Source of the DNA: Polytrichum commune
Lineage: Eukaryota; Streptophyta; Polytrichopsida; Polytrichales; Polytrichaceae
Length of the DNA: 64,000 nt
Reading direction: 5' to 3'
Assembly: GCA_950295325.1 (NCBI GenBank)
Contig: OX485806.1
Coordinates: 808,001-872,000, forward strand
Each line of letters begins with the position of its first letter. Within the stretch, counting starts at the first letter, position 1. This document shows, one piece after another, positions 44,690 through 64,000 of this stretch. The notes under the pieces are model-generated. The model saw nothing but the letters and a program-made list of their open reading frames with translations. It was not told the origin of the DNA and did not search any database. The translations under genes were made by a program, and so were the position numbers.

Positions 44690-45517
44690 TCAAATGAGTT
44701 TATTATATTTCGCGTGAGCGTACAACTCTCTGTACATATAGTCCTTCGGATCCATGTATCTTTCGCCTATCGGATTACAACTAAGGAACCGGGGCACGGG
44801 TAGTCCGCTCCCCACGAGCGTTTGAATGTACTTAAGTAGGTCTAACAAAAAGCGGTCTCGGACCTTCTCGACCGTCCACGTGGGGCAAACTATGAAGTTC
44901 GAGGTCGGGTTCAAAATGTTTTTGGAAGCGATGTCGTCCACCATCAACGTGTTGTCACGGGTGGGGCGAACGTCATAGGGACAGCCGACCATGGTCGGAC
45001 GCTGGTCCCATACGACTGGCTTCAAGACCTTAAGAAATTGGTTTACGGCGGGGTTGTTGGGCTTCTTCACAACCCTGCCCTCGGGGGTGTATAACGATCT
45101 ACAAGAATCCTGTCCTAGGACCAAGCACGGGGGTTGGAGTCCCTTGAAGATGAACTCCACGACGGCCTGGGTATTCTCGGACTTCATGGAACTCCAAATG
45201 ATCACCCACCATTTGGATAGGGCGACCTGCAGGAAGCGCCGAAGCCACGGGCGGAGGTACACTAGCTTGCTTTTGATGTACACGGGGGGACCATCGTAGT
45301 TGGCATCCTCGGGCTTGCAGAAAGGGACCGTTGGGACCCTCGGACAATGCACGCACTGGACAAGGACCCCGTTCAGGTCTAGCACGAGGAACCGGGTTTT
45401 GGGAGGCGAAGGTGGCGAGGGCAAAATCGGGGGGACCACCGCGCTGTCCTCCACACTCCTCGGAGAGGATCGGTGGGGAGCCGCGACGCTATGCTCCGAA
45501 CCCTGCAGCGACGAGCG
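44690..45517 (-). pseudogene. FCP1/NIF-type HAD phosphatase-like protein, 5' end cut by a retrotransposon
   Basis: A minus-strand frame open from the retrotransposon edge (45517) to a TGA at 44690. It matches the FCP1/NLI-interacting-factor phosphatase fold: FLVLDLNGVLVQC holds the first HAD motif, VYLRPWLRRFLQ and WWVIIWSSMKSENTQAVVEF the second block, KPNNPAVNQFLKVLKPVVWD the middle block, and NTLMVDDIASKNILNPTSNF the VDD motif. The first motif reads DLNG rather than the DxDx(T/V) needed for phosphoryl transfer, so catalysis is doubtful. Plant relatives with the same change are known and their role is unclear. No ATG lies in frame inside this segment. The frame continues upstream across the insertion site at 52828, for about ten codons to a stop or possible splice acceptor. 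The retrotransposon thus sits in or next to the first coding exon, and the copy is probably disrupted. Confidence 0.7.
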
Positions 45518-46494
45518 TGTCGCAACCCTTGCTAGCCCCCCCCCTTGACCATCTTGCCAATTTTCAATTCTAGCAAAGGTTACGAGTGGCTAACCCTTCG
45601 CATACCGCCATGCTAATGGTTAGCTCCTCTAACCCCGGACCAATAGTTCATAGGAGGGAACCAACCCTCCTACTTTGCTTTCGGAACTCACCCCTTAATC
45701 GGTAACCCATTTCCCCAATGTGGACTTCCATCCATGGAAGTCCACTCCTATGTTGATCATCGCGTTGCCGGAGCAACACTACAACAACCCGAACCATACT
45801 AGGCAACTATGGCCTCACAATAGGCCAAAGCCCATGGAGGCCTTGCCGTTCGGCCTCGGGTGGGTGAGGCCACGCCACCTCACCCATATAAGCCTCTAGG
45901 ACTTCACGCGGGGCCCCTACCCCACCGTCAACCAACCTCTTGTCTCTCTACCAAGAGTTGGGGCCAAGTGGACATTTTCCTTTAGCTGCTGGGCCTAGAA
46001 CCCCCCAGCAGCTTCAGACCATCATAACTTCCTGGTATGATGTCTGATCATAACAACCAACCACGCCATCCTCATCTACGCTTCACGTAGATGCCGATGG
46101 ACTCCTCACTTGCTCCATTCGAGCAAGTCTTGAGGAAGTTATGCCTGTTTGAACCTTGGCAGTCCCGGGAATCCCTCCCAGGCACTGCTGTACCAGGGCG
46201 CTGTCCCGGGACAGCGCCCCACTCAAATGGCCATAACTCCTAGCTCACACCTCCGATTGAGGTGATCTTGAGCATTCTAGAATCACCACGCCATGAGCTA
46301 CGCATAGCTCATGGCCTTACCCTCATGCCTCCTAGTCTCCGTGGGTGGGAGGCGTTCCCAACGCCCGGGGCCCTCACCCACACTAGGATCACTTGGGCCC
46401 TCTCACCAATGGCGCCACAAGTCCCGGGTGTCACTCCGGGGTCCCCCTTGTGCCCATGGTGTTTCGGGCACTCCTCATGGAGAGGTGCGCGACA
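45518..46494 (-). repeat. 3' LTR of the 7.3-kb retrotransposon
   Basis: 977 bp, starting TGTCGCAACCC and ending GTGCGCGACA on the plus strand. Same length as the partner at 51846-52822, with no difference noticed by eye. It contains a small palindrome CGCTGTCCCGGGACAGCG near 46199-46216 and a GAGCTACGCATAGCTC palindrome near 46297. Confidence 0.95.
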
Positions 46495-46510
46495 CTCACC
46501 CCCACCAAAC
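46495..46510 (-). promoter_or_regulatory. Polypurine tract for plus-strand priming
   Basis: On the minus strand, GTTTGGTGGGGGTGAG lies directly upstream of the 3' LTR. It is purine-rich and in the expected place for second-strand priming. Confidence 0.7.
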
Positions 46511-47299
46511 GGAGTCGATGCCCTCATCGACTATACTCGTAGTCGGCACACCAATTCTCAAGTTGCCATCCTCTATGGTGCGGCATTGTGTTTACCTTAG
46601 GGCGCGACCCCCACAATGCATCTTCAAATTTGGCATAGTCCCAAAGGTGTCGTTACTAGGTGGTCCGTTAGCGACCTTGGAACTCCTCCAAGGACCTAAC
46701 CTACAATAGACCCACCTACTTTGAGACTCACTTGGGTTGCCCCTCCTTTGGGGCCTCCCCCGTTAGGCTCCACTAGCCTAACATGACACATCTAGGCGAG
46801 ACCTCAACGCTTCCACTAAGTTGTCTCGGTTGCAACTCCGAGATGGCTTTCCATTGTTAAGCCACGCCTCGATCGCACGGGGGTGATGCCAAGTCCCGCC
46901 CGACTCGGTTCCCACTTTGCTCTTTCGAGACATGGGTTCATGACTCCCATGCGCCAACTCTCGTTAGCTCGCGGGTAGCACTTTTATGAGCACGCGCCAT
47001 CACCTTGTCCCCGCCCGGACAAGCCCACAACTAAGAAGTTTCTTGGTTTTATCCAAGGCCCCTCCAAGTCATGGCCCCAATTACTCGGCTTACCCAACCT
47101 AGTTTGGCATGTCTATTCCCCCTCTTCCATTAACCAAGCACAAGTACAAGACTAGGACCTCATCTCATACTTTTCTCTTTGCACCACTAAAGTTTGGACT
47201 TTATTCCCTCAAGCCAAAGAACAAGTGCATGTTGTGGAGCAATTAACCTCGAAGCTATGTTTGCTACTAGAGTCTCTCCCCCACTAAAGGAGATTGATG

Positions 47300-47600
47300 T
47301 CCTCATCAATGCCTACGCTTCTTTTTATTGGAATGTCTAGCCTTAGTTTCTTCAAAGTGCTTCACCAATTCATTGGTGTTGACCATGTCTCTTGCCGCCA
47401 CCCAAGCGGTTTCTTTCTCATGGTATCCTCACCATTTCACCAAGTATTCCTTTGTACATTTTCTTTCCTTTTCACTTGGGCTTCCTACACTTGAGGATGC
47501 CCTCTTACCTCATGTTCCAAATGACGTCCACAAGGTCGGGAGGTGGCCTAATCACTTGCTTGTGATCGGGCCACAAGGTGTCGTCCTAAAATGACTTTCG
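47300..47600 (-). pseudogene. Chromodomain at the integrase C-terminus (broken)
   Basis: On the minus strand, TLWPDHKQVIRPPPDLVD is followed, after a stop, by EGILKCRKPK, another stop, and in a shifted frame KEYLVKW, a stop, GYHEKETAWVAARDMVN and TNELVKHFEE, then a basic tail (NKKKRRH). The pattern EgIL...YLVKW.GY...TW......N matches a chromodomain, the module by which chromoviruses bind modified histones. Three in-frame stops and one frameshift make it inactive. Confidence 0.75.
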
Positions 47601-47735
47601 TAATGAGACATGAAATGTCGGATGCACTTTGATCTCCGGCGGTAATTCCAACTTATATATGTCCTTGACCACTTGTTCCACAATGGGAAACGGAGCTCCA
47701 ATTTTGGACATGAACTTTGGAGTGAGGCCTTCCGG

Positions 47736-48723
47736 CTAAGTGAAGTTGTTCACATTCAACAACGCCTTTTGGCCCACCTCATTCTCCACTTCGCGTCTTC
47801 CGGCATTGACTTGCACTCCGTAGCACCTTCGGGCTTTCTCCACCAACAACTTGGTCATCTCCAAGACTTGTTCACGCTTCTTGGCCAAGTCCTCACCATC
47901 TTGGTTGAACTCTAGTGTTGAATGTGCCCCCTCGAGAGCTAGGTTAATAGGTTGGAGCGCATCCACTCCATAAGCCACCACCAAAGACCACCCCTTGGTA
48001 GCCAAGTGCGTGGCTACATTGCAATTACACTCCGCTCGACCCACATAGTCCGCCCAATCTCCTTGGTCCGCCCCCACCAAGTTCCTCAAGTATTGCTTCA
48101 AGACTCCATTCACACGCTCCGATTTCCCATTCATTTGGGAATGCAAGGTCGTGCTAAACCTTAGTTTCATTCCGACCTCCTTAGAGAAATGCATTGAAAA
48201 TGCACTTGTGAACTTTGGATCTTGATCCCACACAATCACTCTTGGCAACCCGTGGTGCCTCAACCATCCTTTGAGAAAAGACTATGCGGTCTCCAACACG
48301 GTGGCGGTTCCCACAATCGGCACCATGTGTGCCCACTTGGCAAACCGCTCTACCATCAACAAGATGGCATCATACCCATGTGACTCCGGCAAACTTGTGA
48401 TCAAGTCCATGCACATACCATGCCATGGCGCCAACGGGATAGGCAACGGTTACAAGAAGCCGCCTTGCTTTTGGTAAGAGGCTCGGTTCACTTGGCACTT
48501 TGATTCAAGCCTTCACAAAGTGGGTTATATCTTCCTTTATGCACCGCCAATGGTACCTCTTTGACACCATTCTATGGCGGCTTTTTCTTTCTCCTCTATG
48601 GCCGGCAATAGGACTATAATATTCCTCCTTCAAAACCGATAGCCTCAACTTGCCTTGTGGCACATATACCCGACTTTGTTTGCACTTGAACAATCCGTCC
48701 ACCAACTTAACCTCTTTGAGCAC
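47736..48723 (-). pseudogene. Integrase domain of the 7.3-kb retrotransposon (broken)
   Basis: The zinc module side reads QGKLRLSVLKEEYYSPIAGH and WRCIKEDITHFVKA (48723-48505). The core side reads LPRVIVWDQDPKFTSAFSMH (Asp in the WDQDP context), then LRFSTTLHSQMNGKSERVNG with the catalytic Glu, RNLVGADQGDWADYVGRAEC, and REQVLEMTKLLVEKARR (48263-47736). The part of the core carrying the first catalytic Asp is not open in the same frame. The order and blocks are those of gypsy integrases. The following segment leads to the chromodomain. Confidence 0.8.
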
Positions 48724-49119
48724 CTTGCTCTTGCGAAGCTCACCTAAAAGCTTTTGTGCTTTGGGGTAGTTAATTTACCCCTACCGTATCTTGCATCACA
48801 AGTTTCCTTTGCCGGCACACATTAGCCACAAGGTTTGGATGGTTCTCATTGCTTGGAACTCTTCCGGTCTACTTCGCGCATCCGGCACCACATTTCCACG
48901 GTCCGGTTTGTGGATCAAATCCACCTTCATAAGCGCCAAACTATCATGCCTCCGCAATGACTTGGCGTTCACTTACGCTTGTATGTCAAAATACTTTTAG
49001 GACACATTGTCCATGTAGACCTTTGCTTTGTGCGACCCCACATAATGTCGCCACATCTTCAAGCAATGCACTATGGCAAAGAAGTTCTTTGTCATGAGTT
49101 GGTTGTCTTCTTTGACAAC

Positions 49120-50010
49120 CATCGAGCTTTATGCTCCCATATGCAATGGCCATCCATCTTACACATAATCCACCATTGGCAAAGGCACTCACCCCCGTAT
49201 GCACCTCGAAAGGTTTGTCAAGCTCCGCGAACTTGAGCACGGGCGGCGAAGAAAACTTGGTGTTAAGCTCCCCAAAGACTCGTGACAAACATCATCCCAC
49301 TCTTGGGATAGCCATTTCTTCCACAAGTCGCACAAGGTGGGACAACCATCGAGCTTCATGCTCTCATATGCCATGGCCATCCATCTTACCTCAACATCCG
49401 CCAATGGTAAAGTCACTCGCCCCCGTATGCACCTCAAAAGGTTTGTCAAAGTCCGCGAACTTGAGCATGGGCGGCGAAGAGAACTTGCTCTTAAGCTTCT
49501 CAAAGACTTGGTGGCAAGGCTCATCCCACTCTTGGGATAGCCATTTCTTTCACAAGTCGCACAAGGTTTGACAACCTTTAAGCTTAATGCTCCCATATGC
49601 AATGGGCATCCATCTTGGATCAACATCCGCCAATGGTAAAGTTACTCGCCCCCGTATGCACCTCAAAAGGTTTGTCAAATTTCGCAAACTTGAGCACGGG
49701 CGGTGAAGAAAACTTGGTCTTAAGCTCCTTAAAGACTTGGTGGCAAAGCTCATCCCACTTTTGGGATAGCCATTTCTTGCATAAGTTGGACAAGGTCGGA
49801 CAACCATCGAGATTCATGCTCTTATATGCAATGGCCATCCATTTTGCCTCAACATCCACCAATGCTAAAGTCACTCGCCCCCGTATGCACCTCAAAAGGT
49901 TTGTCAAAGTCCGCGAACTTAAGCACGGGCGGCGAAGAGAACTTGTTTTTGAGCCCTCCAAAGGCTTGGTGACAAAGCTCATCCCACTCTTGGGATAGCC
50001 ATTTTCCTCA
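49120..50010 (-). repeat. 228-bp tandem repeat, four copies, within the RT/RNase H junction
   Basis: A block around ATGCAATGGCCATCCATCTT starts near 49131, 49360, 49588 and 49817, so the period is 228-229 bp, equal to 76 codons. Each unit encodes on the minus strand TKFSSPPVLKFA-FDKPFEVHTG, the start of gypsy RNase H, plus the preceding NGYPK-G linker. The units differ at several percent of positions. An intact element has this segment once. The extra copies would insert about 230 residues and are incompatible with a normal enzyme. Confidence 0.85.
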
Positions 50011-50620
50011 ATAAGTTGAATAAGGTCCTAGCAACCTTAGAAAACTCTCGAATGAAGTTGTGGTACTAATTGGCTAGGCCAACAAATGACCTAAGCCCTT
50101 TTGAATCAAGGGCCAATTCTCCTTTTGGATTGCCTTGACATTCTTCATGTTCGTCCACCAACTTCCTTTGTCACCACATACCTCAAGAACTCAATCTCTC
50201 GTTGAGCAAAGTTATTTTTCACTCCTTGGCGGTAATTTTTTTTTTGGGCAACACATTGGTGAATACATCCTTGTATCTCACCAACATCACACCAATGTTG
50301 TTTGGGGGAGGCCCATCTTTCCTAGCCTCCCCATACATTCCTTGGAGTTGCTCCAATTGAACCACGACCATTATGTTTTTTTTTTTTTTTTTTTTTTTTC
50401 ATTCGGTCCATTAAGACCAAATTCAACTTAGGTCCTCCTACCATAGGAGTCATTGTTAATTTGAACTTCAATTCTTTGCCATTATGACACATCATAATGC
50501 ACGGCAAGCACACCGGCTTGCACCTCACATCTATCATGTGAGTTTCAAAGAAGGCGGCCTTCACAATGACATGCATTTTATCTATTTCACTTGGTGTGAA
50601 ATTTTGACAAAAATCCAATG
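50010..50620 (-). pseudogene. Protease-RT spacer and RT tail with the RT catalytic core deleted
   Basis: On the minus strand the spacer reads KELKFKLTMTPMVGGPKLNL then VLMDRM, a Lys run from the T24 tract (50376-50399), QLEQLQGMYGEARKDGPPPN, YKDVFTNVLPKK, and then at once VKNNFAQREIEFLRYVVTK, followed by LRSFVGLANYYHNFIREFSK. In gypsy RTs roughly 200 residues, including the LDL and YxDD boxes, lie between the first LPKK-type block and the FAQREIEFL block. They are absent here. The flanking blocks are normal, so this is an internal deletion. The element cannot make a working RT. Confidence 0.75.
50376..50399. repeat. T24 homopolymer tract
   Basis: An uninterrupted run of 24 T on the plus strand, inside the protease-RT spacer of the retrotransposon. 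On the coding strand it gives eight lysines. Confidence 0.95.
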
Positions 50621-51831
50621 TCCCACATCAAAAGGTTACATGCATCGCCGCCTCCTTTGCTTCATGCGGTTCGCCCTTTGCAAACCGTACTTTGGTGGGC
50701 TTGCCGGCTCTACCCGTCCGCGAGCCCCAACCCCCTTGTGAGCTTTCGGCTCATGAAAGAGTCCGTTGCCTCTTTGACAACTCATGAGACATATCTCCCA
50801 TTCATTTGAGCCTCAAGGTATACATGACTTGGCCTTGGCTTAAGGCTACTAGCCTTGGCCACAAAGCCACCATCTAATTCTCCCTCCACCGCAACAATAT
50901 GTTTTGGCTCGGTCCGCAAAGCCAACTTTTAACATTTCGTCCGTGGGCCGAGTTGGTTTAGTGCCACAAAAGCAATTTCCAATAATTTGTCCACAAAACA
51001 AACATGTTTTCCCTTGATAGCACAAAACCACCTTCCCACACTCCGTATGCGGCACGAACATGAATTGCCTTGGTAGGACAAACCCACCTTCCAACATTCC
51101 GTCCGCGGCATGAGTATGATTTGCCTTGGAAGCATAAAGCCACCTTTCAACATTCTGTTAGCGGCACCAACATATTTTGCCTAAGTAAAATGAACCAAAC
51201 AATTTGCACTCATTTCTTTGGGACCAACTTTGGCTAAAGCCACTTGTGGTGATGCGCCGCCAAACTTTTCTTCGGGACCATCGGATTCAATGATCTTGCA
51301 AACTTGATGATCCCCACCATGTCCTCAAGAAGCCTTGGGGACTTAAACAAGGCATCCACCACCCGCTTTTAAAACCCCACCTAAAACGATGCATTTCTTA
51401 GAAAGCTCGTCCGTTTTAGGTGTATCCTTCATTTGTGCGTTTGAATAGCGCACATAGGCCTTAAGAGGCCCCGGGTGCCTCATTAGCACCAAGTTCATTT
51501 CAACATCCGAACCTTCGAAGCATTTCGAATTGAAATTTCAATCCAACATTAACACCCTCCAAGGTTTTGGGTGCATTCGGTATTCTAGGCCCCAAATACT
51601 ATTTGAGGTTTGCGGGAGCCCTTTCAAAGGACACCTCCATTTTCCTCACCGAATCCACCCTCATGCCCACCATTACCATTAAAATCAATGGTATGGTCAA
51701 ACTCCATTTGCACATGATCCTTGTTCCAATTTGAGCCTCACAACCTTTTGGAAACCCCGGGCTCACCATCATAACCCGCATTTTTGATACCCATGTTTCC
51801 CTCAAAGTGCGAGCTCAAAACTTGGAACCCT
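50620..51831 (-). pseudogene. Decayed gag/protease region of the 7.3-kb retrotransposon, with ~60-bp repeats
   Basis: No clean capsid or protease motif is visible. Between about 50890 and 51180 a unit of roughly 60 bp recurs four or five times: CACCTTCCAACATTCCGT is seen near 51087, with variants near 51028, 51147 and 50931. On the minus strand the units give Cys-rich pieces such as ECGKVVLCYQGKTCLFCG, which may be remnants of repeated zinc-knuckle-like segments. Assignment as gag rests on position between the primer-binding site and the RT spacer. Confidence 0.4.
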
Positions 51832-51843
51832 GCTCTGATACCA
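51832..51843 (-). promoter_or_regulatory. Primer-binding site, initiator tRNA-Met
   Basis: On the minus strand TGGTATCAGAGC lies two bases inside the 5' LTR. It is complementary to the 3' end of plant initiator tRNA-Met, the usual primer of chromoviruses. Confidence 0.92.
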
Positions 51844-51845
51844 AG

Positions 51846-52822
51846 TGTCGCAACCCTTGCTAGCCCCCCCCCTTGACCATCTTGCCAATTTTCAATTCTA
51901 GCAAAGGTTACGAGTGGCTAACCCTTCGCATACCGCCATGCTAATGGTTAGCTCCTCTAACCCCGGACCAATAGTTCATAGGAGGGAACCAACCCTCCTA
52001 CTTTGCTTTCGGAACTCACCCCTTAATCGGTAACCCATTTCCCCAATGTGGACTTCCATCCATGGAAGTCCACTCCTATGTTGATCATCGCGTTGCCGGA
52101 GCAACACTACAACAACCCGAACCATACTAGGCAACTATGGCCTCACAATAGGCCAAAGCCCATGGAGGCCTTGCCGTTCGGCCTCGGGTGGGTGAGGCCA
52201 CGCCACCTCACCCATATAAGCCTCTAGGACTTCACGCGGGGCCCCTACCCCACCGTCAACCAACCTCTTGTCTCTCTACCAAGAGTTGGGGCCAAGTGGA
52301 CATTTTCCTTTAGCTGCTGGGCCTAGAACCCCCCAGCAGCTTCAGACCATCATAACTTCCTGGTATGATGTCTGATCATAACAACCAACCACGCCATCCT
52401 CATCTACGCTTCACGTAGATGCCGATGGACTCCTCACTTGCTCCATTCGAGCAAGTCTTGAGGAAGTTATGCCTGTTTGAACCTTGGCAGTCCCGGGAAT
52501 CCCTCCCAGGCACTGCTGTACCAGGGCGCTGTCCCGGGACAGCGCCCCACTCAAATGGCCATAACTCCTAGCTCACACCTCCGATTGAGGTGATCTTGAG
52601 CATTCTAGAATCACCACGCCATGAGCTACGCATAGCTCATGGCCTTACCCTCATGCCTCCTAGTCTCCGTGGGTGGGAGGCGTTCCCAACGCCCGGGGCC
52701 CTCACCCACACTAGGATCACTTGGGCCCTCTCACCAATGGCGCCACAAGTCCCGGGTGTCACTCCGGGGTCCCCCTTGTGCCCATGGTGTTTCGGGCACT
52801 CCTCATGGAGAGGTGCGCGACA
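51846..52822 (-). repeat. 5' LTR of the 7.3-kb retrotransposon
   Basis: 977 bp, the pair of 45518-46494. Next to it are the primer-binding site (inner side) and the GAGCG duplication (outer side, 52823-52827). Confidence 0.95.
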
Positions 52823-52827
52823 GAGCG

Positions 52828-54340
52828 AGAGAAGGCGGCGAGGACTATGTTATGCTATGTCCATCTCAAGCAGAACGGAAATTTTAATTTGTGCAAACAC
52901 AAGAAGAATTGGACCATTGGTGGCAACAAAAACATACAAGGCGAACAACATACATTGGGACACGGATGCAAACATATGGGCGCCAAAAATAATAATTTTA
53001 TTTTTACAAATCTCTATGTACAATTTGATTGGGGGGGGGGGGGGGGACCGCGGTGAACGAGGGCATTCACACTATCCTAATTCTACATCTACAAAATTGG
53101 TTGCGCGCCGCCAAGGTCGAGCGTAGTCGAGTGCAGGTGTGTGAGCCCAAAAGGGTGCCCACATTTAGTCTTAGACCCTTGAAACGTTAGTTGATGCACT
53201 TTGAAGTAGCATGTTACTTCACAAAAATATAAAAAGAGTGAAATGTTAGTTTTAGAAGTACCATGTTGTAAGAGGCTAGGATGTGAGTTGTTATTGTGTT
53301 TTTACCTTCGGAAGGATTTGAGTGAATGAGGATAGGTAAGGAGAACTTGGATTGAGTAGTTAGTGAGTAGGCTAGTACAAATGGATGGAGACAACCAAAG
53401 TGACTCAAGAGGCAAGTGCATTCGAATTGGGATGAATGGAGGATCACATGGAGCGCACAAGTGGACCACCTCATCATGGCCACTTAATGGGGAAGGCCCA
53501 AGGAAGAATGCAAGGTGGAGGATAAGCAAATTCTCAAAGCACCAATCAAATCATGAGTTAAGCATCGTGGTTTGAATTAAGTGGTGAGCGACGATTTGGG
53601 AAAGTAAGGGGAGAAAGTTATGGCGGCGGAAAGCGAAGGAGGCTAAGTTTGGGTTGAAGCATCCCAAGTTTGGTAAAGTGTGGTAGGTAGAAAGCCAAGG
53701 CTAGTTAAATGTTCGAATTAGGATCCTTGTTGATCATTTGAGGGAGGAAGGCTTAGAAGATAGGATTGGCGCCTACTAAGTAGGAGGAAATCTCAAGGGC
53801 TTATCGTGAGCCTTGAGGGTGCTCACCCCCTCAAGCTTACTATATAATCCCTCATTCTTCCCTCACTCATCCTCTCTTTCCTTTGTGCTCCAAGGCACCC
53901 CACGAGTTATAAGTGTGGGTGTGGGAAGCCATATTGGAGCACATGTGTGTGCTTAGTTTTTAGTTTGAGAGCCAAGGCTTGTTAGCCTTGAAGAGGGCTT
54001 GACCTCTTGGTAGAATTAGTGTTGACGTGAAGGATTTTAAAGTTAATTCATGATTCCAATTTGTGGTACTTTAAGTTCGTGTTTTGAATACACGTGGTTG
54101 CAAGTTCCATGTTTAAGAGTTGAGCACTTGATGTTGTGATGAGTGCAAAAATATACTTGTGTGGATTAGTTAGTCTTAGTGAAGTTAGGAAATTCTCTCT
54201 CCCCCTCTCCTCTCTAGGATTTTAGGATTTTAGGATTAGAGAAGAATTGTGTGATTAGAAAGGGGTTGTTAGTAGAATTAGGGAAATTAGGTAGGAAAAT
54301 TAGTTAAGGGCTTGAATAATTAGTGAGGTAGTTGGGAATT
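52828..54340. other. Stretch upstream of the FCP1-like exon, no gene recognised
   Basis: The first ~30 bases continue the FCP1-like reading frame on the minus strand up to a TAG, which may mark a splice acceptor region. A G16 run lies at 53031-53046. A TATA-like CTATATAA near 53839 (plus) precedes a CT-rich stretch, but no gene follows it, so it is not called as a promoter. Confidence 0.4.
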
Positions 54341-54354
54341 ACAACTACAAAGTT

Positions 54355-54610
54355 GTGGGTTCATGAAGGAGCTGGGTTTATGAAGGAGTTGGGTTTGTTT
54401 AGTTAGAAAGTAAAGAGCTGGGTTTATGAAGGACCTGGGTTTGTTTAGTTAGAAGCTAAGGAGCTGGGTTCATGAAGGAGCTGGGTTTATGAAGGAGCTG
54501 GGTTTGTTTAGTTAGAAGCTAAGGAGCTGGGTTTATGAAGGAGCTAGGTTTATGAAGGAGCTAGGTTTATGTAATTAGAAAGTAAAGAGATGGGTTCATG
54601 AAGGAGCTTA
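54355..54610. repeat. Minisatellite with a GAGCTGGGTTTATGAAG-type unit
   Basis: Short units of about 15-17 bp (GGAGCTGGGTTTATGAA) alternate with a longer unit that includes TTTGTTTAGTTAGAAGCTAA. At least eight short units are present, some with CTGGG changed to CTAGG near the right end. Confidence 0.85.
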
Positions 54611-55102
54611 GTAGATAGCCTACCTAATTAGCTCATAGACAAGTAGTTAGTTACATTATGCTAGTTAGTGTTATGTGTGGCTTTCACAAGTAAATGTATT
54701 TGAGATTGACTATAGAGAATAGTGTTTTTTTTAACACTTGCATCATCTCTTTAAAAATAAACCACGTGCACAACTTAATGGAGAATGTGGAGCACTCTCG
54801 CGATGGCAAGACAAAGGAAGCAAAGACCAAAGTTAAATCCAAGACCACTTGAAGGGTGAACCTTGCACTGTGGACTCATCCAAGTCCAAATCCAATACCG
54901 CGGAGGAATGTGAGCCCAAACCCACTACTCGGACTACGGACGCTTAAGGGTGGGGGGTTTGGCCTCACAAGGTGAGACGAAGGGGATCGCGGGGGGCACG
55001 TTGGGGGAGGGGGAGCAAGTGCAGAGCATGGGAGGGCAGGGGGTGTGCATTTCCTCCTAGCAAGGGGGACACGACCACGCCAACAAGACAATGACCCAGG
55101 AA

Positions 55103-55124
55103 GTTTGGGTCGGTCGACCCAAAC
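55103..55124. repeat. 22-bp palindrome of the GTTTGGGTCGA family, downstream flank copy
   Basis: GTTTGGGTCGG followed by TCGACCCAAAC, differing from a perfect palindrome at one central base. It is the leftmost copy of the family found throughout the ParB-like gene. Confidence 0.9.
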
Positions 55125-55687
55125 TGGGGAGGGCTCAGTGTATTACCTCGCCCTGGTCATGTCTCGACGATGTGGAAGCCTCCACCGTCCCCGCTGCCCC
55201 GCCTCTCTCGCCACCGCCTTCTCCGACGACATCAGGAACCTTCTCCTGCAAACGATCGGCATCAGGCCCTTGTCCTAAACCAATCTCCAATTTTCGTATT
55301 TTACCTTGCTTATATGAGGATAATAAGGTCTATTAGGACAAAATTAATGGTACTAGGAAATAGAGCAGTCTAACCCCGCCTTGTGCGGTAAAACGACTCT
55401 AAATAAGTACTATGACCGGTCCGTCAAATAGGATGGGCGGACCATGTAATCATGGTCCAAACCCTTGGTCCGGACCAAGTGACGGACGCGCCAAGATTAC
55501 CCAACGGCCCGGAAGTGGCGGTTACAACGGGCCTTATGGCGGTTGGGGGAAAAGAGAGCCGTTGGTGAAAATGTTAGTAAAACCGTTGGTGGGAACCGCC
55601 GGAAAACGGTTGGTAACCGTTTTCCGTTAAACCGAACGGTAACAGGGGAAGGAAGGAGTAGGAAGTCCGAATAGGACAAAGGAGAGG

Positions 55688-56247
55688 AAACCCGGATTAG
55701 ATCCGGTTGCAAGCCTAGGGATCCTTTTTGAGTGTAGTGGGAAGGAAACCTCACTATTCCGGATGTTTGGGTAACGTCCGGGTGGGATAGCCGCTGGTAG
55801 GACTGGGTAAAATCCGGAAGGGATCCGGATTTACGCCATCCGATCTTTTGAGAGGTCTCACCGCCCTCGGACGGAACAATCCGGAAAGTGGTACGGATCG
55901 CCCAGTTATCTCAGATTTAGTAGAGCCCCAGGCAGTTGTATACCGGATCCGTCCGCCGGAAGGGGAGACCCGGATCAGATCACTAGTCATTACCTTTCGG
56001 AACCTTTCCGGGTGTAGTGGGAGGGAAACCTCATTTTCCCGGCTGGTCGGGAAACGTCTAGGTGGGATAGCCGCTGGGAGGATTGGGTGAAGTCCGGGAG
56101 GGATCCGGATTCATGCCATCCGAGCTTCTGAAGAGGTCCCACCGCCTTTAGACGGACCAATCCGGAAAATGGTACGGATCGCCTAGTTAGCCCGGATTCA
56201 GTAGAGCCAAAGGTAGTACTAGCCGGATGAGATCCGGAGAAGTACAG
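55688..56247. repeat. 280-bp tandem duplication, rich in TCCGGA/ATCCGG words
   Basis: Two units offset by exactly 280 bp, aligned for example at GTGTAGTGGGA (55733 and 56013), GGGATAGCCGCTGG and GGTACGGATCGCC. Divergence is roughly one base in six or seven. The whole region from about 55640 to 56800 is unusually dense in TCCGG words. Open frames here in several frames have no domain. It is possibly part of an LTR or a decayed satellite. Confidence 0.8.
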
Positions 56248-56737
56248 GAGTAAGTTAGGATTCCGGATGAGGGGATACAGATCCGGAGGAAGGGGGAAGG
56301 AGACACCATCGATCCGGATATCCGAGTAGCGTAGAGACAAGATATTCCGGAACGTGGTACGGATCACTCTTTCACTCTGTTGAGTTTACCCCCCTTCGTG
56401 GAATCCGGCACCCTCCTGTCGTTGTAGTCCTAGGAGGTAATCCGGACTCCCTGTGTGACCTGCCAATCCGGACCTGATCAATCCGGCTTGGTTGTGAGGG
56501 AAGATCCGGACCCCCTGCTAGAGAAGGACGTCTTCACCGGAAAATACCCATCATTAAGGGAGGATAGAACGTAGTACAAAGATATTTTAGGGAGGAAACA
56601 ATCCGTCTGGGACTTAGGAGTCAAATCCGGAAGAGGAAGTTCCGGATACAGGAGGACTTCAAAAAGGCCGGAAACTAGGATTTCCGGAAAATATAAAAGA
56701 AGAGGGGAAACAAACAGTTCCGGAAAGTCTCTACCTC

Positions 56738-57901
56738 CTACACTTCACAGAATCCCTGGACGATACTAAGGTCACCCGGAAATATCCGGATTTGGCACAA
56801 AAACCCGCCAATCCGGAACTTTTGGTGTTTGTGGGTTCCCACAGGAGGGCCCAAAGGGGAGGAAGCTCCAGAGACGCGCCAGATGTTGGGGTCGTCCACT
56901 TGCTGGACCGGCGCGTACGGAACTTGGTGGGGCCGCATCAAGTGCTGGAAGCTGAAAGACGATTGCGGCATAGGCTGCTGAGGGATGCTCTGCGCAGGGA
57001 AGCCGGGGGGCAAGTGCGGGAAGGAGCTGGAGGGAGCCACCACCAAACCTTGCGCCCACATTCCTTGTATCACTTGTGATATCAATTCGGCGTGGGACGG
57101 AGGTTGGGCCATCGCCCTCTGTCGCTCCTGCTCCAACAGGAGAGCCCTCAGCTCTGCTACCTTGTTCCGCACCGAGGGTTCTTCAGCGGCAGCCTTCTGC
57201 AGACGGACGCGTTGCTCCTCGTCCCTCCGCATCTTCTCGTTCGCCTCATCCACCGTGAGGACTTCGGGTTTCACCCTGACCATGCCAGCGAACGCTGTCG
57301 GGGAGGGGGGATCCGATCTGAGCCGTTTGGCGAGCTCAATATCATCGTCGTCCTCGTTGCTTATGGCAATGGTCTCCTCCACGGAGTAGTCGCCATACAG
57401 CTTCTTCCCCTTCATCTTCCTCCTCTCCCTGAACGTGGCGGTCGCGTCCCTGGAGTACATGTCCCGTGCATCGTCCACCGTCAGGACGGGCACGAGCTTA
57501 CTCTGCGGGGTTGCCGCCCGCATCGCCTTCTTCCGTTGAGGGGCTTCGGATTGTTGCGTGAAGCCCGTTGCCCCTTCCTCGACGTCGCCTTCCTTCTCCG
57601 CCTCATCGTGTTCCTCTTCTTCCTCCTCCTCCTCAACCTTGCCACCTTCTGTGCGGGATGGATTGCCCGGATGCAATCCGACCAGAGGTTCGGGTACTTG
57701 GGTCGTGGCCCTCATGGCCATTTCCTCTGGGTTGATGCACCTCACCCTATCAAGAGGGTTTTCGCCCCCCTGAACAACCTCGTCGACGTAGCTACCCGGG
57801 ATCCAATCGAGGATGTCCATTTTCTTCGCCAGCGATTTCTGCACCCTGTAAAATGGCAGATCGCCATCCTCTATGTAGGAGTATATATTCAGCCCCGACA
57901 T
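56738..57901 (-). CDS. ParB-like/methyltransferase-like gene, third recognised exon: acidic and coiled, Pro/Gln-rich tail
   Basis: This exon starts right after a TGTAG acceptor (57903-57902) and is in phase with the preceding exon. Its first residues, MSGLNIYSYIEDGDLPFYRV, follow on from the glycine-rich motif of the previous exon. They occupy the place where methyltransferases have a beta strand ending in an acidic residue that binds the cofactor ribose. Next come an acidic run (VEEEEEEEEHDEAEKEGD), two copies of a VLTVD-(D/E)A segment about 90 residues apart, a charged coiled-coil-like region (KMRRDEEQRVRLQKAAAEE), and a Pro/Gln-rich tail. The annotated end (56738) is simply the stop of the frame. 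The last ~50 residues may be intron or element sequence, because the minus strand there reads CCCCAACA then TCTGGCGCG, like an LTR end plus primer site. Confidence 0.6.
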   Translation of the reverse strand: MSGLNIYSYIEDGDLPFYRVQKSLAKKMDILDWIPGSYVDEVVQGGENPLDRVRCINPEEMAMRATTQVPEPLVGLHPGNPSRTEGGKVEEEEEEEEHDEAEKEGDVEEGATGFTQQSEAPQRKKAMRAATPQSKLVPVLTVDDARDMYSRDATATFRERRKMKGKKLYGDYSVEETIAISNEDDDDIELAKRLRSDPPSPTAFAGMVRVKPEVLTVDEANEKMRRDEEQRVRLQKAAAEEPSVRNKVAELRALLLEQERQRAMAQPPSHAELISQVIQGMWAQGLVVAPSSSFPHLPPGFPAQSIPQQPMPQSSFSFQHLMRPHQVPYAPVQQVDDPNIWRVSGASSPLGPPVGTHKHQKFRIGGFLCQIRIFPGDLSIVQGFCEV

Positions 57902-57975
57902 CTACACAATCCAAGTTATAGGGAAATTAGAATTTGTCGAGGCAATCACATAAACAAGACTAAGTACAATGTGTA

Positions 57976-58105
57976 GTTTGGGTCGGTCGACCCAAACCTG
58001 CAAAGAGCCTAGTTTGGGTCGATCGACCCAAACCTGCAAAGAGCCTAGTTTAGGTCGATCGACCCAAACCTGCAAAGAGACTAGTTTGGGTCGATCGACC
58101 CAAAC
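57976..58105. repeat. Four 22-bp palindromes at exact 36-bp spacing in an intron
   Basis: Starts at 57976, 58012, 58048 and 58084. Each is GTTTGGGTCGA followed by its reverse complement, with one central change in the first and GTTTAGG in the third. The 14-base spacers are nearly identical to each other (CTGCAAAGAGCCTA). The array lies within the intron between the second and third recognised exons of the ParB-like gene (58133-57902). Constant spacers distinguish it from CRISPR. Confidence 0.95.
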
Positions 58106-58133
58106 TGCTTACGAGCTAGAGAAAGTCACTTAC

Positions 58134-59410
58134 CATAGCAGTATAGACAGGTTTTGAGCCTCCGAAGACGTTGAAGATGCAGTCCCCTCTCCTCGTCAGC
58201 GTCCTCATCATTCTCATGTAAAATTCCATCCGCAGCTCATCTGCAGGATAGTTCGCGTATTTAGCCTCGTCGTAGAGGCACTTGTTGGCACCCAACCCTT
58301 CTGGAACTTGGAAGAGTTTGTCCATCCGGGATATAGGGTGGTTCGGCACCTTCAGCAACTCCGCTTTGTACACGAAGTACAAACACAAGACGTTGACGAA
58401 CTTGGTCTTCTTGTCCTTCAACGTCGTGTAAGCCCCCTCCGCCGGTGCGGCGATGTAGTGAGACTTGGACACTGCATACTCCGGCTGCAGTTTCCGGACA
58501 AGCTCGTACACCTGCTCCGCCCTCCTATCCTTGACTATCCAAAGCCAGATATCTACCTCCCTGAACTTAGGGCTTGCATAATCGACGAACTTAGTTAAGA
58601 AGGGGTCGTAGAAGAGGGTGCTCATCGTGCCCTCAAATGAGCTTCCAGGTCTGTTTCTAAAATCAATCATCCCAAAAGGAAAGCGGTCCTTTGCTTTCGT
58701 CCTTATCGCCATTCTGGCGTCTTGACCTGGCCAGCCCTGAATTTTCAAAGGCTCGAAGGTGACAAGGTTGAAGTAAGCGTCCCCTTCAAACTGGACAATC
58801 TTCTTCTCCTTGATGAAGTTCGAGAACGCACGCGCTGTGTGATCCGGAAGCGCCCGGTTCTTCCCACCCTTCACCATCTTGGCCCGCAAAAAGTCGTCCC
58901 CCGCTTCCCTTATTAGAGCCGCCATGGACGCACTGGTGAACTTATATTCATCTTTGAATGCTCTCCAGTTAGCCTTATGAACCTCGCCGTCCACGACAAT
59001 ATTCCTCTCTAGTACGAATTTATGCAGCTCCTGCACGATAGTCGTCTTCTTTTTCTTGTTCTCCATCCATTCCTTCATGGTGTAGCATGAAGGAACGAAG
59101 GATTTGGGCTTTACGAAGATAATCTTTGGGTGCACCCAGCACCTCTTGGCCGTGGGTGCCACGTGCAGGATGTACGATGCCGCCTTCTCCACCTCCGTCT
59201 CTGACAGCCCTTGAAGAGTTCTAAAGAACTCTCTCACGAGAGGCTTCATCTGCTTGAAGCGCGAGGCCAGGCTGAAGAAAGCGCCAGTGTCGGGGTCGAT
59301 CAAATCCCCCGTCTTGTGTTTTTCAAACACGGTTTTCCACTTCCTCCAAACTGAGTCCGATGTTGTAATCAAGTAAATCTCCCCCTTGAGGTCGCTGTAT
59401 TTCTTCTGCT
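58134..59410 (-). CDS. ParB-like/methyltransferase-like gene, second recognised exon: methyltransferase-like region
   Basis: The exon ends at a clear donor (GCTATG before GTAAGT, 58133-58132), phase 0. The start is uncertain. The frame is open to 59525, but an acceptor CACAAGCAG just upstream of KKYSDLKGEIYLI is more likely. The C-terminal part reads ADELRMEFYMRMMRTLTRRG then GDCIFNVFGGSKPVYTAM. This resembles the GD-VLDPF-GSGTT block (motif I) of amino-type DNA methyltransferases, in which the catalytic D/NPPY box lies upstream. The candidate box FGMIDFRNRPG (about 58680) is far from D/NPPY, and Gly-Ser-Lys replaces Gly-Ser-Gly, so activity is doubtful. The rest (SDSVWRKWKTVFEKHKTGDL, HVAPTAKRCWVHPK, YEL-RKLQPEYAVSKSHY) is not recognised. 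The family assignment is inference from one motif plus the ParB context. Confidence 0.6.
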
Positions 59411-59555
59411 TGTGGCTCGAATTATCAATGGAGGAAAATTTGTTGATCATTTGATATTTGAAATCATGCACGTGAACAAAACAGAACATTTGAATGCGTG
59501 TTAGATAAGTACATGTGATTTCCAAACCATATCATGACCAACATCTACAACAAGA

Positions 59556-59672
59556 GTTTGGGTCGATCGACCCAAACTAAAAAAATCACAAGATTGCAAC
59601 AGTTGTTTGGGTCGATCGACCCAAACTAAATAAACAAGGCTGCACCAGGAGTTTGGGTCGGTCGACCCAAAC
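59556..59672. repeat. Three 22-bp palindromes in the first recognised intron
   Basis: Copies at 59556-59577, 59605-59626 and 59651-59672, spaced 49 and 46 bp, same half-site GTTTGGGTCGA; the third has one central change. They all lie between the donor at 59681 and the following exon. Confidence 0.95.
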
Positions 59673-59681
59673 AATACTCAC

Positions 59682-61005
59682 CTCCCACTTGGGATTCTTG
59701 TCCTTCGCATTCTCCCTCCTTGGGAGGCCTACCATAGAACTCCCACACCTCCCGCGAGGCTATGATATTCCTTATCCAGAAAGCTTGGTAGGCCCTTTTC
59801 TTATTCCCCATGTTGAAGTAACGGGAGATGTCGCTCAGTCGGGTCTCATCATCAGACCACACCACCAGTGCCTTCCACACCTTCAACTTCTCCTTCTGAT
59901 TGTTGGGATCATCCCACTCATTCATGAGTTGGATTTTCTTGCATGCCTCCACGCTGTGTTGGCCGTCTATCAGCCAAAAATCGCCCTTCTGAATTGTTGG
60001 CCACATTTCAGGTGTAGGCATTTTCTTGAGACCCTGTGGCATCACTACAATCGTTTGCCTGCCGTCTTTAAACTGCTCGCAAACGATCTGCGCGATTATC
60101 CAGTCAACGTAGGCGTCCTCCTTTGTCCGGACACACTTCTCCGGTGGCGCTAGATGGCACTGGCTGATGTTCACGTCGAACTTGAAATCCCTGCCCATGA
60201 AAAAACAGTGGAAGCATTTCGTCGTGAAATTGTTCACGATTTTCTGCAGCTCCCCTGCATCCACCTCTTCGCCGGGCTTCGGCATGCGCAACTCCGGTGA
60301 GACTGGCTCGTCAGTCATCACAGATGACTCTCTCGCCCTCTTGGATGGAGTTGTTTGACGGCTCCCAGAAGGTGTAGGAGCCTCACTATTCGTAGGTGTT
60401 TGGGATGGAGTGGTCCTCCGTGAGTCAGCCGGTACTGGTCGCGGCATCCTCACCGTTTGATGTCTTGACGACCCTGCTCCTTCCTCTGTGGGAGCTTTCC
60501 GCCTCACAGCTTGCTGTGATTTGGTTTTGCTTTGCACGTCCTTGTTCAGCACGGTTATTGCATGTTTTAGTTTTGTGAACCGGCTTGAGACCTTGGTATT
60601 CGATGTACTGTTATCGATGAATATAGACTCCGGTTTGATGACGTCGGGTTCTACACATGTTTCTTTTGCATAGATAGCGTCAAAGGGTTCGGAGAACTGG
60701 TGCATAAACATATGCGCGTTCTGGACAGCCGAGTTCTCGAGGATGACGTCGGTATAGTCTCCAAGAGACTGTACCGATGCGACCTCCCATCCCGTAAGAG
60801 TCGCCCAGGTGTGCTTCTCCACGGTTCCCACCTTGACAACAAAAATCATTTTGTATGTTGAGGCTTTGACTACTTGAATTGACCAAGCGAGGACAAGCCC
60901 GTCCTTAGGGGAATAGGAGTCTTCCTGCGGGGTTTCGTGCTCCTGCCACAACATGTCCGGCGCAGGCATGAACCACCTTTCGCCTGGTCGTTTCTTTGGG
61001 GCTAT
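59682..61005 (-). CDS. ParB-like/methyltransferase-like gene, first recognised exon: ParB/Srx-fold domain
   Basis: Bounded by an acceptor TTTCTTTCCTTGCAG (ending 61006) and a donor GGGAG before GTGAGT (59681). The first part reads KKRPGERWFMPAPDMLWQEH and ATLTGWEVASV. The middle is Ser/Thr/Pro-rich and basic (RTTPSQTPTNSEAPTPSGSR), probably disordered. The last third is a ParB N-terminal-like domain: KFDVNISQCHLAPPEKC, IVVMPQGLKKMPTPEMW, FWLIDGQHSVEACKKI with DGQH at 59967-59956, KALVVWSDDETRLSDISRYF and NMGNKKRAYQAFW. ParB proteins have a GxxR loop that binds CTP; the DGQHR variant occurs in related modification enzymes. Here Ser stands where Arg is expected. Earlier exons must exist, because there is no ATG in phase near the acceptor, but I could not find them. 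Confidence 0.7.
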
Positions 61006-61031
61006 CTGCAAGGAAAGAAACCCCAATGTTA

Positions 61032-61053
61032 GTTTCGGTCGTTCGACCCAAAC
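61032..61053. repeat. 22-bp palindrome copy upstream of the ParB-like exon
   Basis: GTTTCGGTCGT then TCGACCCAAAC, with two changes from the consensus. It lies 27 bp upstream of the ParB-like exon acceptor, thus within the intron. Confidence 0.85.
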
Positions 61054-61249
61054 TTCTTCAAAATGAATAGAAGTCACGTGATGTAATTGAAATGTAATAA
61101 ATTGCCGCATGTATTTTGGTGGTTTGTGTATTGTTATATGTGAACATCATTTAATGGTGATATTGTATTTTTATTTTTGGGTGGACTTGCATTTTATATT
61201 GTATCTAACATCATGGATTTCTTTATGAGATTAGGGTTTAGAAGACTGT

Positions 61250-61430
61250 GTTTGGGTCGAGCGACCCAAACATCAGCCTTTGATTGGGTTTAGGGTTTCA
61301 AACAGCAGCCTTTGTTTGGGTTTAGGGTTTCAAACAGCAGCCTTTGTTTGGGTCGAGCGACCCAAACAACAGCCTTTGTTTGGGTCGATCGACCCAAACA
61401 ACAGTCCTTGTTTGGGTCGTCTCCCCAAAG
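61250..61430. repeat. Cluster of 22-bp palindromes with TTTAGGGTTTC repeats, 5' flank
   Basis: Palindromes at 61250-61271, 61346-61367 and 61378-61399, plus a degenerate one at 61410-61430. Between them a unit containing AACAGCAGCCTTTG and GGGTTTAGGGTTTCAAAC is repeated. Two copies have GCGC-type centres (GGTCGAGCGACC) instead of GGTCGATCGACC. Confidence 0.9.
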
Positions 61431-61593
61431 TGTTTTTTATTAATATATTTTAAAAATTTGCACGTAGCATAAACAATGCTTATGCGTTGTGTATGCTACA
61501 ACACTAAGAATTAAGAAACATAACACAATACCTTTGAAATTTGTTGTGCAAACACTTTGGAGTAGATGATGTCTCTTTCCAATAACCCTCAAT

Positions 61594-61890
61594 AACAACT
61601 CTGGAATCTCTGAAACAACTATTCAATCTCAAACAACTCTGGAATCCCTCAAACAACTCTGGAATCTCTGAAACAACTATTCAATCTCAAACAACTCTGG
61701 AATCCCTCAAACAACTCTGAAATCTCTTAAACAACTCTGAAATCTCACAAACAACTCTGAAATCTCTCAAACAAATACTGGATCTCTCAAAAGACTTCTG
61801 AATCTCTCAAACGACTTCTAAATGTCTCAAGCAACTCCTGAATCTATCACAAAATTACAGAATCGCTCAAACGACTTTGAAATCTCTCAA
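61594..61890. repeat. ~21-bp minisatellite, about 13 imperfect units
   Basis: Units of the type ACAACTCTGGAATCTCTCAA. The left half includes a larger duplication (GAAACAACTATTCAATCTC occurs twice, about 60 bp apart); units drift toward the right (ACGACTTCTAAATGTCTCAA). Confidence 0.9.
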
Positions 61891-62468
61891 ACTACACAAG
61901 AACTCCTGATACTCACAAGCACAATCTCAACCTCCTACACGATGTTCTCCTAACTTCTTGCCGCACTCTTCAACACTCTGCAACACTCTTGAACAACACT
62001 CTTGAAAACTCATCTACTAAGTTCCTCTACCCTCACGCACTAAACCTTTCCTCCGCAAGTTTCTGTGCTTTTCAAGACTCTTCCTAAAACCTAAGATTGG
62101 ATAAGAGTTATGCAAGAGCAAGAGCAAGAGCAAGAGTGAAAAGACAAATAATGAAGAAGAAGCAGAATGGTGGGAATACCGCGCCTGAATCGCCGCGGCG
62201 CTTCAGGAGAGGCGGCGCTTCCAAGCGAGGCGCGGAGGGAATGCTTGGCGCGGAGAGAGAGAGAAGGAATTCGAAAAGGTGACGTTTGGGGTTTTGATCG
62301 CCTCGGGAATTGGCCCCACCCCCGCCAATAGGCGGCCCACAGGATTAGGGTACCCACGTAATTAGGATTTCGGGGAACCCTAAATCCTAAAGCCTAACTC
62401 TAAACCCTTAGCGGGTATAACTTATTTCAATGAACTAAGGTGCTACATGAAATATACTAAGGTGCGGT
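61891..62468. other. Stretch with an AGAGCA microsatellite and a GC-rich patch
   Basis: An (AAGAGC)n run lies at about 62112-62135. The frames over it (Arg/Ala or Ser/Cys repeats) are artefacts. A telomere-like patch AACCCTAAATCCTAAAGCC lies near 62377. No gene is supported. Confidence 0.45.
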
Positions 62469-62669
62469 GCCAATGCATTCTTGCAACAAAACTTTATGCC
62501 AAAGCTTATACTTAACCCCTACTTACATGACACCATACACTAAACTTTCCAAACAAGTTGAAGTCGTTGGTTTCTCTTTTGTTTGAGCATGTTAGAAAAA
62601 TAATACAATTTCGTGACATATAACGATGTAATCATTGACATTTAGACTTTCCCAATGATGCCAACAACT
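62469..62669. repeat. 201-bp direct repeat, left copy (partner 63662-63862)
   Basis: From GCCAATGCATTCTTGCAAC to GATGCCAACAACT. The partner has the same length, about 10% different, in the same orientation 1,193 bp away. It could be a short LTR pair or a segmental duplication. The interval between them is non-coding. Confidence 0.8.
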
Positions 62670-63527
62670 ATGCCTTTCACCACGTTTGAAGGCCAAGGAT
62701 TAACCAATTGTTTTTTAAAGCGTTGATTATAAGTTATGAAAGGTTGCTAAAATTCAAATGAGTTTAAGGGTGAAAGTCCTCACCATCTTCTGATTCAACC
62801 TCTACTCTTCCTGCAAGATATAGCCTAAAGATATGTACTTAGGCCAACTAATTTCCCAATTTGAAGAAGGATGAATGGCTAAAATCCTCTCTTTTAAAAA
62901 TTTTGTAGGTAAAATTTCCTACATGTTTTTTATCACATACTAGGTTGATATCTTATGTTCTTAAATTGTGCATAGGCTCTTTGTCCTACACTCTCAAAAT
63001 TTTATATGCTAAGTCACTTATTTTTTAGGCTGCATTTGTATTAATCACTATATTCGTTAATTTGGGATGGTTTAGGTAGGACGACCCAAACATTAGACTA
63101 TGTTGTTGTGGTCCTGCTTTAAAATGGTTCTAAGCCCTTGAAATAATTGGATGACTTTATGGTCATATTTTCAAACCTAAGTTTGATCCAAGACTTCATG
63201 TATAACTCTACTATGATGTATAAAATGCCCCCCACCCCCACCTCGCACCCCACCAAAGCTTTTGTACAAGTTTCTCAAGTTTTCAATCCCTTGTGCTTGT
63301 GATCAATTCCTAATCCACTAGACTATTTTCTCTAATTAGTGTGGCATAACATTCGGAGTTACACATTTCTGTAACATTTAATAGAAAGTATTTTTTCATC
63401 CAAATAACATAAGTAGGTAGTATGCACACGAAAAATTATGATATGACTTAGTTCGTAAAAAACGATAATGTCAGTAAAAAGTTATAGCAAGACATAATTC
63501 TGAAGTGCACAAGTGCACCTCTCGTTC
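62670..63527. other. AT-rich non-coding stretch between the direct repeats
   Basis: No gene is seen. A single copy of the GGTTTAGGTAGGACGACCC motif (near 63069) relates to the tandem units at 43401-43680. Confidence 0.4.
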
Positions 63528-63593
63528 ATCCAACATAAAGCCCTTAAATAGTATGTATATAGTATCCAACATAAAGCCCTTAAATAGTATGTA
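63528..63593. repeat. 36-bp tandem duplication
   Basis: ATCCAACATAAAGCCCTTAA with AATAGTATGTA occurs twice, starts 36 bp apart (63528 and 63564). The flanking ACCTCTCGTTCATCC relates it to the small element at 17176-17413. Confidence 0.9.
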
Positions 63594-63661
63594 CCTTGAA
63601 CTCTGGAGTACACTAAGGTGGTACATAAAATGTGTTATTCTACTAAACTAACCATTTATAT

Positions 63662-63862
63662 AGCCAATGCATTCTTACAACAAAACTTTATGCTAAACGA
63701 ATACTTAACCCTTACTTACATGACACCATACCCTAAATTTTCCAAACACATTGAGGGCATTGGTTTCTCTTTTGTTCGAGCATGTTAGGAAAACCATACA
63801 ATTGCGTGATATTTAACGATGTAATCATTGACATCTAGACTTTACCAATGATGCCAACAACT
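63662..63862. repeat. 201-bp direct repeat, right copy
   Basis: See 62469-62669. It ends with the same ATGCCAACAACT. The rest of the window, to 64000, shows nothing recognisable. Confidence 0.8.
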
Positions 63863-64000
63863 CACACGATATTGAATGAATAAAAAAGATTACCCACACC
63901 CCCCAACATGTGGAACAATTTAGAATATTTGAGTGTGGAGCCTATTAAATGAATACATTCCCCAACTGCATTTTGTAAGGGTTTTCAAATGCATGAGCCT

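Follow-up and report, generated by a model that had tools for sequence, protein, structure and literature searches.

A stretch of 64,000 nucleotides of the Polytrichum commune genome (GCA_950295325.1, contig OX485806.1, positions 808,001 to 872,000; hereafter, the window) harbors on its minus strand a gene of three coding blocks, which a preliminary description of the sequence read as encoding a ParB-fold protein with a methyltransferase-like region and which is interspersed with copies of a 22-bp palindrome. We find that this gene, here called the accessory gene, is carried by a large multi-copy cut-and-paste DNA transposon that is approximately 16-19 kb long without nested insertions, and that the copy in the window is damaged and split by nested insertions. 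The palindrome has the form GTTTGGGTCG-NN-CGACCCAAAC, that is, two 10-bp arms around a variable 2-bp centre, and is found in the window at 13 sites, all within 55,103-63,091 (at most 3 mismatches; shuffled control mean 0.00, n=100). The earlier count of eleven or twelve copies between 55.1 and 61.4 kb agrees with the 12 confirmed in that interval, and the earlier claim that the palindromes avoid exons holds as well, with none of the 13 sites in the three coding blocks of the window copy.

The ends of the element, AACACTATA...TATAGTGTT, are bordered by an exact 4-bp target duplication in all 12 copies examined, namely, 10 pairs on contig C1 (ends with zero mismatches, pairable at 16-18 kb), a copy of 18.6 kb at C1:1,174,918-1,193,533 (copy A) and the window copy, with all 12 repeats being different. 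The terminal inverted repeats (TIRs) together with the 4-bp target duplications therefore identify a cut-and-paste (class II, TIR) transposon. When the genome was searched (408 Mb, 64 contigs) with up to 3 mismatches allowed, the 5' end sequence was detected at 555 places, as opposed to 0 for the reversed control. The window copy continues to C4:888,373 (extended coordinate 80,373) and spans 37 kb including nested insertions. The element carries at least three genes, one of which encodes a DUF7869 protein (PF25273, E 5.6e-24 in copy A) near the 5' end and on the strand opposite the accessory gene, whereas the accessory gene and, downstream of it, the gene for a NIF-type phosphatase (PF03031, E 1.3e-13 in copy A) share the other strand. 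The DUF7869 gene probably encodes the transposase of the element.

The exact 22-mer occurs 1,591 times genome-wide, with a reversed control of 0. Among 14 palindrome clusters, which are the first in order on C1 rather than a random sample and were taken as 10-kb stretches that cut several copies, 13 contain all or part of the accessory gene, each aligned piece being 67-97% identical. In copy A, 26 sites lie inside the element and in the window copy 25, and none lie outside it in the stretches of 50 kb and 84 kb around these two delimited copies. Together with the TIRs and the 4-bp duplications, these observations bear out one suggestion of the preliminary description, namely that the palindromes mark a mobile unit carrying the gene; an even spread of the palindrome through the genome, with no link to this gene family, is excluded in the sample examined (14 clusters on C1). 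The possibility that the palindromes are themselves independent mobile insertions is rejected by the same lack of sites outside the two delimited copies.

Within the element, the sites keep to non-coding DNA. Across 152 kb, made up of the 14 loci and the final 12 kb of the window, there are 251 sites, none of which overlaps an exon of the accessory gene although these exons make up 27.6% of the DNA; the exons were taken as the tblastn matches to the three exons of the window, so that sites in unmatched exon parts would escape the count, and the sites are clustered, so that a simple probability for the avoidance would overstate it. The DUF7869 and NIF reading frames of copy A are palindrome-free as well. 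Compared with the AT-centred form, the arms of the 251 sites differ at 83 of 5,020 positions (1.7%), a figure biased low by the selection of sites with at most 3 arm mismatches (189 of the 251 have none), whereas the centres differ at 203 of 502 positions (40%). The two CpGs in the arms are conserved; GATC occurs in the AT-centred form and, the centre being variable, is not the conserved part of the palindrome. The placement of the sites is conserved, too: all 14 copies compared for intron 1 have a site there, as do all 10 compared for intron 2 and all 13 compared for the region upstream of exon 1. Between subfamilies, the intron spacers (compared together with a few codons of the flanking exon) are 62-81% identical, with gaps, as against 93-100% for the arms. 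The 12 copies with a full flank have 4-9 sites within 600 bp upstream of the gene, and in copy A the sites occupy positions 5,560-15,912 of the 18.6-kb element, with none within 2.5 kb of either end. The palindrome pattern is absent from the viral and prokaryote contig collections searched, and the intron-2 array has no match among the plasmids searched.

The three minus-strand coding blocks proposed in the preliminary description are real and conserved in other copies, but the gene in the window is not intact and its splice signals are not all as good as had been thought. The acceptor of exon 2 is altered, the true start of this exon being probably near 59,465, some 60 bases upstream; exon 1 lacks the start codon, with methionine at this place in 7 other aligned exon-1 copies, and contains a one-base frame break near its end; and the part of exon 3 past approximately residue 348 (the last ~35 residues) has no match in relatives. 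In a search with exon 2, in which 99 of 1,207 first-look candidates were scored, the window gene is at least 90% identical to at least 98 other copies (99 including itself), and exon 2 is stop-free inside in 77 of the 99. The ratio of nonsynonymous to synonymous substitution rates (dN/dS) for exon 2 has a median of 0.08 and a range of 0.04-0.54 (28 pairs of 8 sequences, 3 of which contain stops); among the pairs printed, those between subfamilies have dS above 1, and the highest dN/dS values, 0.32-0.54, belong to the window copy compared with close copies. For exon 1 (11 sequences, 3 with stops), dS is saturated in many of the 55 pairs, hence no median is given; the window copy compared with 4 close copies yields dN/dS of 0.11-0.21. 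Judged by exon 2, the accessory protein is under purifying selection.

On balance, the locus is a damaged copy of a DNA transposon, and a protein encoded by this transposon, most likely the accessory one, probably binds the palindromes for self-recognition. That the candidate sites are bound by some protein encoded in the element appears fairly likely, and for the accessory protein in particular we take the chances to be about even; this assignment fits because of the conservation of the arms relative to the centres, the exclusion of sites from exons and the published hypothesis for algal proteins discussed below. In this reading, the ParB-like accessory protein would bind the palindromes in the non-coding DNA of the element and, through them, would recognise all copies of its own family; the bound copies would then change in regulation or chromatin state, in a form of self-directed anti-silencing or autoregulation such as VANC provides for VANDAL. 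A more specific variant, which we put forward tentatively and consider rather doubtful, is a eukaryotic ParB-parS-like system, in which a ParB-derived protein would load at the palindrome, spread or bridge copies, and set the chromatin or DNA-modification state, with the methyltransferase half being non-catalytic or altered.

Several observations weigh against binding by the accessory protein. In one of the 14 clusters (L029, 4680-4958), the palindrome array is found without the accessory gene, and only the array resembles the element, the 10-kb stretch around it holding no element that could be recognised. Tandem arrays can stay uniform through slippage and conversion without any function, and the palindrome could instead be bound by a factor of the host or by the DUF7869 protein. 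The protein itself provides further such points. The ParB-type DGQH and the methyltransferase motif I on which the preliminary description relied can be made out by eye in the sequence, but Pfam profiles give no match there at a limit of E 10 (the HMMER filters drop most matches above E ~0.1 despite this limit), the PF01555 profile of N6/N4 DNA methyltransferases included, and the other support is weak and confined to short motifs. Profile searches of Pfam, PHROGs, NCBIfam and PADLOC for ParB and methyltransferase gave no significant match, nor did sequence searches of the PDB; no relatives of the protein were found in the viral and prokaryote collections, and the phage searches yielded a single match apiece, at the level of chance (E 2 and 0.9). 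The ParB-like match is a segment of 21-24 residues (phrog_1033, E 0.023), and an unrelated NCBIfam family, MPN396, scores about as well on this region (E 0.028). Comparison profiles were built from 11 phage ParB-methyltransferase proteins, one of which, when checked, matched PF01555 at 9.4e-28 and, below the cut-off of the profile, PF02195 at 8.9e-05. In these comparisons, the ParB match that scores best for the window coincides exactly with the DGQHS segment (hhalign P 0.005, probability 7.3%, with 29 of 2,000 shuffles as high); exon 1 against the phage ParB profile gives P 0.0095 and probability 4.3% (30 of 2,000 shuffles as high), and a profile-profile comparison with 8 exon-1 copies gives E 0.02 and probability 2.3%. 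Similarly, the FGGSK segment is precisely where the methyltransferase match is best; 145 of 2,000 shuffles equal it (387 and 399 where the sequences are longer), and the profile-profile comparison with 5 exon-2 copies yields E 0.098. The copies are close to each other, and therefore the multi-copy alignments gave no gain over the single sequence.

Motif IV of the N6/N4 DNA methyltransferases (PF01555) is (D/N/S)PP(Y/F/W); a DPPY-type motif is absent from the 5 aligned exon-2 copies and invariant in the 11 phage relatives. The arginine of the ParB P-motif (Box II), which is needed for nucleotide binding according to PMC12704722, is present in 9 of the 11 phage relatives and absent from the 8 aligned exon-1 copies, which contain DGQHS, DGQHN or DSQHS. 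Single-sequence structure predictions reached a mean confidence score (pLDDT) of 34.7 for exon 2 and 39.1 for the ParB-like segment. The motifs are in the right places and in the right order, with weak statistics. With all this taken together, a ParB fold in the accessory protein seems likely and a methyltransferase-derived fold moderately probable; that the protein is an active methyltransferase is unlikely, and the lack of the catalytic motif makes it doubtful that it methylates DNA.

The palindromes might, alternatively, be binding sites of the putative DUF7869 transposase, that is, internal transposition repeats to which the accessory gene is unrelated. Clustered transposase-binding repeats occur in many DNA transposons, the DUF7869 gene does sit in the element, and copy A has an array ~5.6-6.4 kb from its 5' end, well upstream of the accessory gene. 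The sites, however, extend across the central part of the element and through both introns of the accessory gene into its 3' flank, whereas the two ends of copy A are site-free, and we regard this explanation as unlikely. It is more improbable still that the palindromes are read by a host silencing or transcription factor, or act as a promoter, enhancer or insulator, with no protein of the element binding them: a motif bound by the host ought to occur at host genes as well, and in the flanks of the two delimited copies there are no sites outside the element, nor was the palindrome found in the prokaryote and viral collections. The dense sites immediately upstream of the gene would suit such a regulatory role, as would the existence of the L029 array without the gene.

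There is, finally, the very unlikely case that the palindromes are a passive minisatellite spread by slippage or conversion, or serve only as intronic RNA hairpins. The tandem arrays, with periods that include 32, 36, 46, 64 and 78 bp, are compatible with a minisatellite, but the linkers vary between arrays while the arms are identical, and the centres vary approximately 24-fold more often than the arms. Hairpins would require no more than pairing, whereas the arm sequence itself is kept. The exons of the accessory gene are palindrome-free, and intronic hairpins would not account for arrays that lie kilobases upstream of it. Binding of the palindromes by a protein of the element, probably the accessory protein, is the explanation that we prefer.

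Table 1. Features of the transposon copy in the window (coordinates in the window; L numbers are our labels for loci)
Feature	Coordinates	Strand	Basis or remark
Transposon portion within the window; 3' end (gene orientation) at 43,243	43243..64000	-	TIR AACACTATA..., block alignment with copy A, 4-bp duplication
3' terminal inverted repeat AACACTATATTCGTTAAATTGAGAC...	43243..43286	+	42-mer from 43,245 occurs genome-wide at 517 places on both strands with up to 3 mismatches allowed (0 for the reversed control)
Second cargo gene, NIF/FCP1-type phosphatase	44690..45516	-	PF03031, E 1.4e-12 (44690-45589); nested LTR element at its upstream end
Nested long terminal repeat (LTR) retrotransposon, not part of the element	45517..52822	.	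978-bp direct repeats, 100% identical; palindrome-free
Nested insertion	53139..54970	.	Absent between matching blocks of L018, L019, L022, L023, L025, L027
Palindrome, 3' flank of accessory gene	55103..55124	.	Pattern search
1.6-kb stretch containing the false end of exon 3	55288..56844	.	~0.3 kb in L018, L019, L022, L025, L027
Exon 3: remaining methyltransferase-like region and low-complexity tail	56738..57901	-	Compared with relatives
4 palindromes, 36-bp period, intron 2	57976..58105	.	Pattern search
Exon 2: beta-class methyltransferase-like region, ends at FGGSK	58134..59405	-	Compared with relatives
3 palindromes, intron 1	59556..59672	.	Pattern search
Exon 1: N-terminal part and ParB-like DGQHS segment	59682..61005	-	Compared with relatives
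Palindrome with 1 arm mismatch, directly upstream of exon 1	61032..61053	.	Pattern search
3 palindromes in units of 32 bp (at 61250, 61346 and 61378), in the upstream region or a probable 5' intron	61250..61399	.
Palindrome with 2 arm mismatches, farther upstream of exon 1	63070..63091	.	Pattern search

The nested LTR retrotransposon (Table 1) is probably a recent insertion, and an inverted relative of its 978-bp repeat, 84% identical, is located at window positions 4206-5177; a relative of the neighbouring nested insertion was found in L030. TIR-like internal copies, with 7-8 substitutions, occur inside the element at L019:8252-8293, L025:1579-1620 and L027:8538-8579 (L019 and L027 in forward coordinates), possibly as traces of an older nested element or of a rearranged end. 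In two units of the upstream palindrome array (window 61282-61335), the palindrome centre is replaced with a TTTAGGG stretch, which we take to be plant-telomere-like, with the outer ends kept, and a tandem repeat with 20-bp and 58-bp units occupies 61594-61892, in the probable promoter or 5' untranslated region. Elsewhere in the window, a fragment of a C5 cytosine methyltransferase (6169-6669, plus strand; PF00145, E 5.9e-11) is followed, 1 kb downstream, by a reverse transcriptase (7662-8153, plus strand; PF00078, E 1.2e-12), and the two possibly belong to a retrotransposon that carries a DNA methyltransferase (DNMT), a kind of element reported from the charophyte Klebsormidium (PMC5890265). 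Three ankyrin-repeat paralogues, 87-92% identical in DNA, are present at 17834-19720, 25918-27672 and 31145-33107; the one scanned (18085-19206) contains Ank repeats and a weak PGG match below the cut-off.

With respect to known transposons, a 4-bp target duplication is the rule in the Sola superfamily and is what the element has. EnSpm/CACTA elements have a 3-bp target duplication and a TIR starting with CACTA; the inverted repeat of the moss element does contain CACTA, but this assignment is rejected by the 4-bp duplication and by the start of the TIR, AACACTA, two bases before CACTA. As for ParB, parS sites are short palindromes, and so are the sites described here. The accessory protein resembles the phage ParB_N + N6_N4_Mtase fusions (L002-L012; PMC12704722) in the order of the domains, the position of the DGxH-type motif and the FGGS motif I, and differs from them in being encoded by a eukaryotic element with introns and in being much longer, with the P-motif arginine replaced, DPPY missing and a similarity that is not significant. 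The same paper, a survey of the ParB-CTPase fold, names sulfiredoxin as its most common eukaryotic representative.

The preliminary description did not recognise any eukaryotic nuclear gene of this kind, yet ParB/methyltransferase accessory genes of algal transposons are already in print (PMC12477816). According to that paper, the Ectocarpus transposon Sola1-1_Ec32 is 21.5 kb long and carries, opposite the transposase strand, an accessory gene for a protein of 1,104 amino acids with ParB-like and N4/N6 methyltransferase domains; its authors suggest that a protein of this kind may act on the very transposon that encodes it, by binding it and modifying it epigenetically, and they cite Iyer 2011 and Petroll 2025 with regard to transposons of green and red algae. 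Compared with Sola1-1_Ec32 by description only, the moss element is likewise a large DNA transposon with an accessory gene opposite the strand of the (probable) transposase. Unlike Sola1-1_Ec32, it offers a candidate recognition site: the passages of PMC12477816 that were examined give no binding site, and the string 'palindrom' is absent from its main text. It also differs from that description in that the profile evidence is weak here for both domains and that the catalytic motif is lacking. A literature search that left most subscription journals outside turned up no paper describing palindromic sites for a eukaryotic ParB-like transposon protein.

The closest functional parallel, by analogy, appears to be the VANC/VANDAL system (PMC5735166). 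As that paper reports, VANC21 binds a 9-base motif arrayed in the non-coding parts and introns of VANDAL21, and VANC targets evolve through tandem repeats. The likeness is that arrays of a motif specific to the family occupy the non-coding parts of the element; here, the arrays are tied to the accessory gene in nearly all clusters sampled and spare its exons. The differences are that the protein family and the transposon superfamily are presumably other ones, that the 9-base motif of VANC21 is non-palindromic, and that binding and methylation loss were shown for VANDAL in Arabidopsis, whereas binding in the moss element is predicted from its sequence. Nevertheless, with well over a thousand candidate sites tied, in the sample examined, to one ParB/methyltransferase-like family, the self-marking by ParB/methyltransferase accessory proteins that was proposed from Ectocarpus becomes testable by binding and methylation. 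The palindrome system thus offers a parallel to VANC and raises the possibility of parS-like addressing inside a eukaryotic nucleus.

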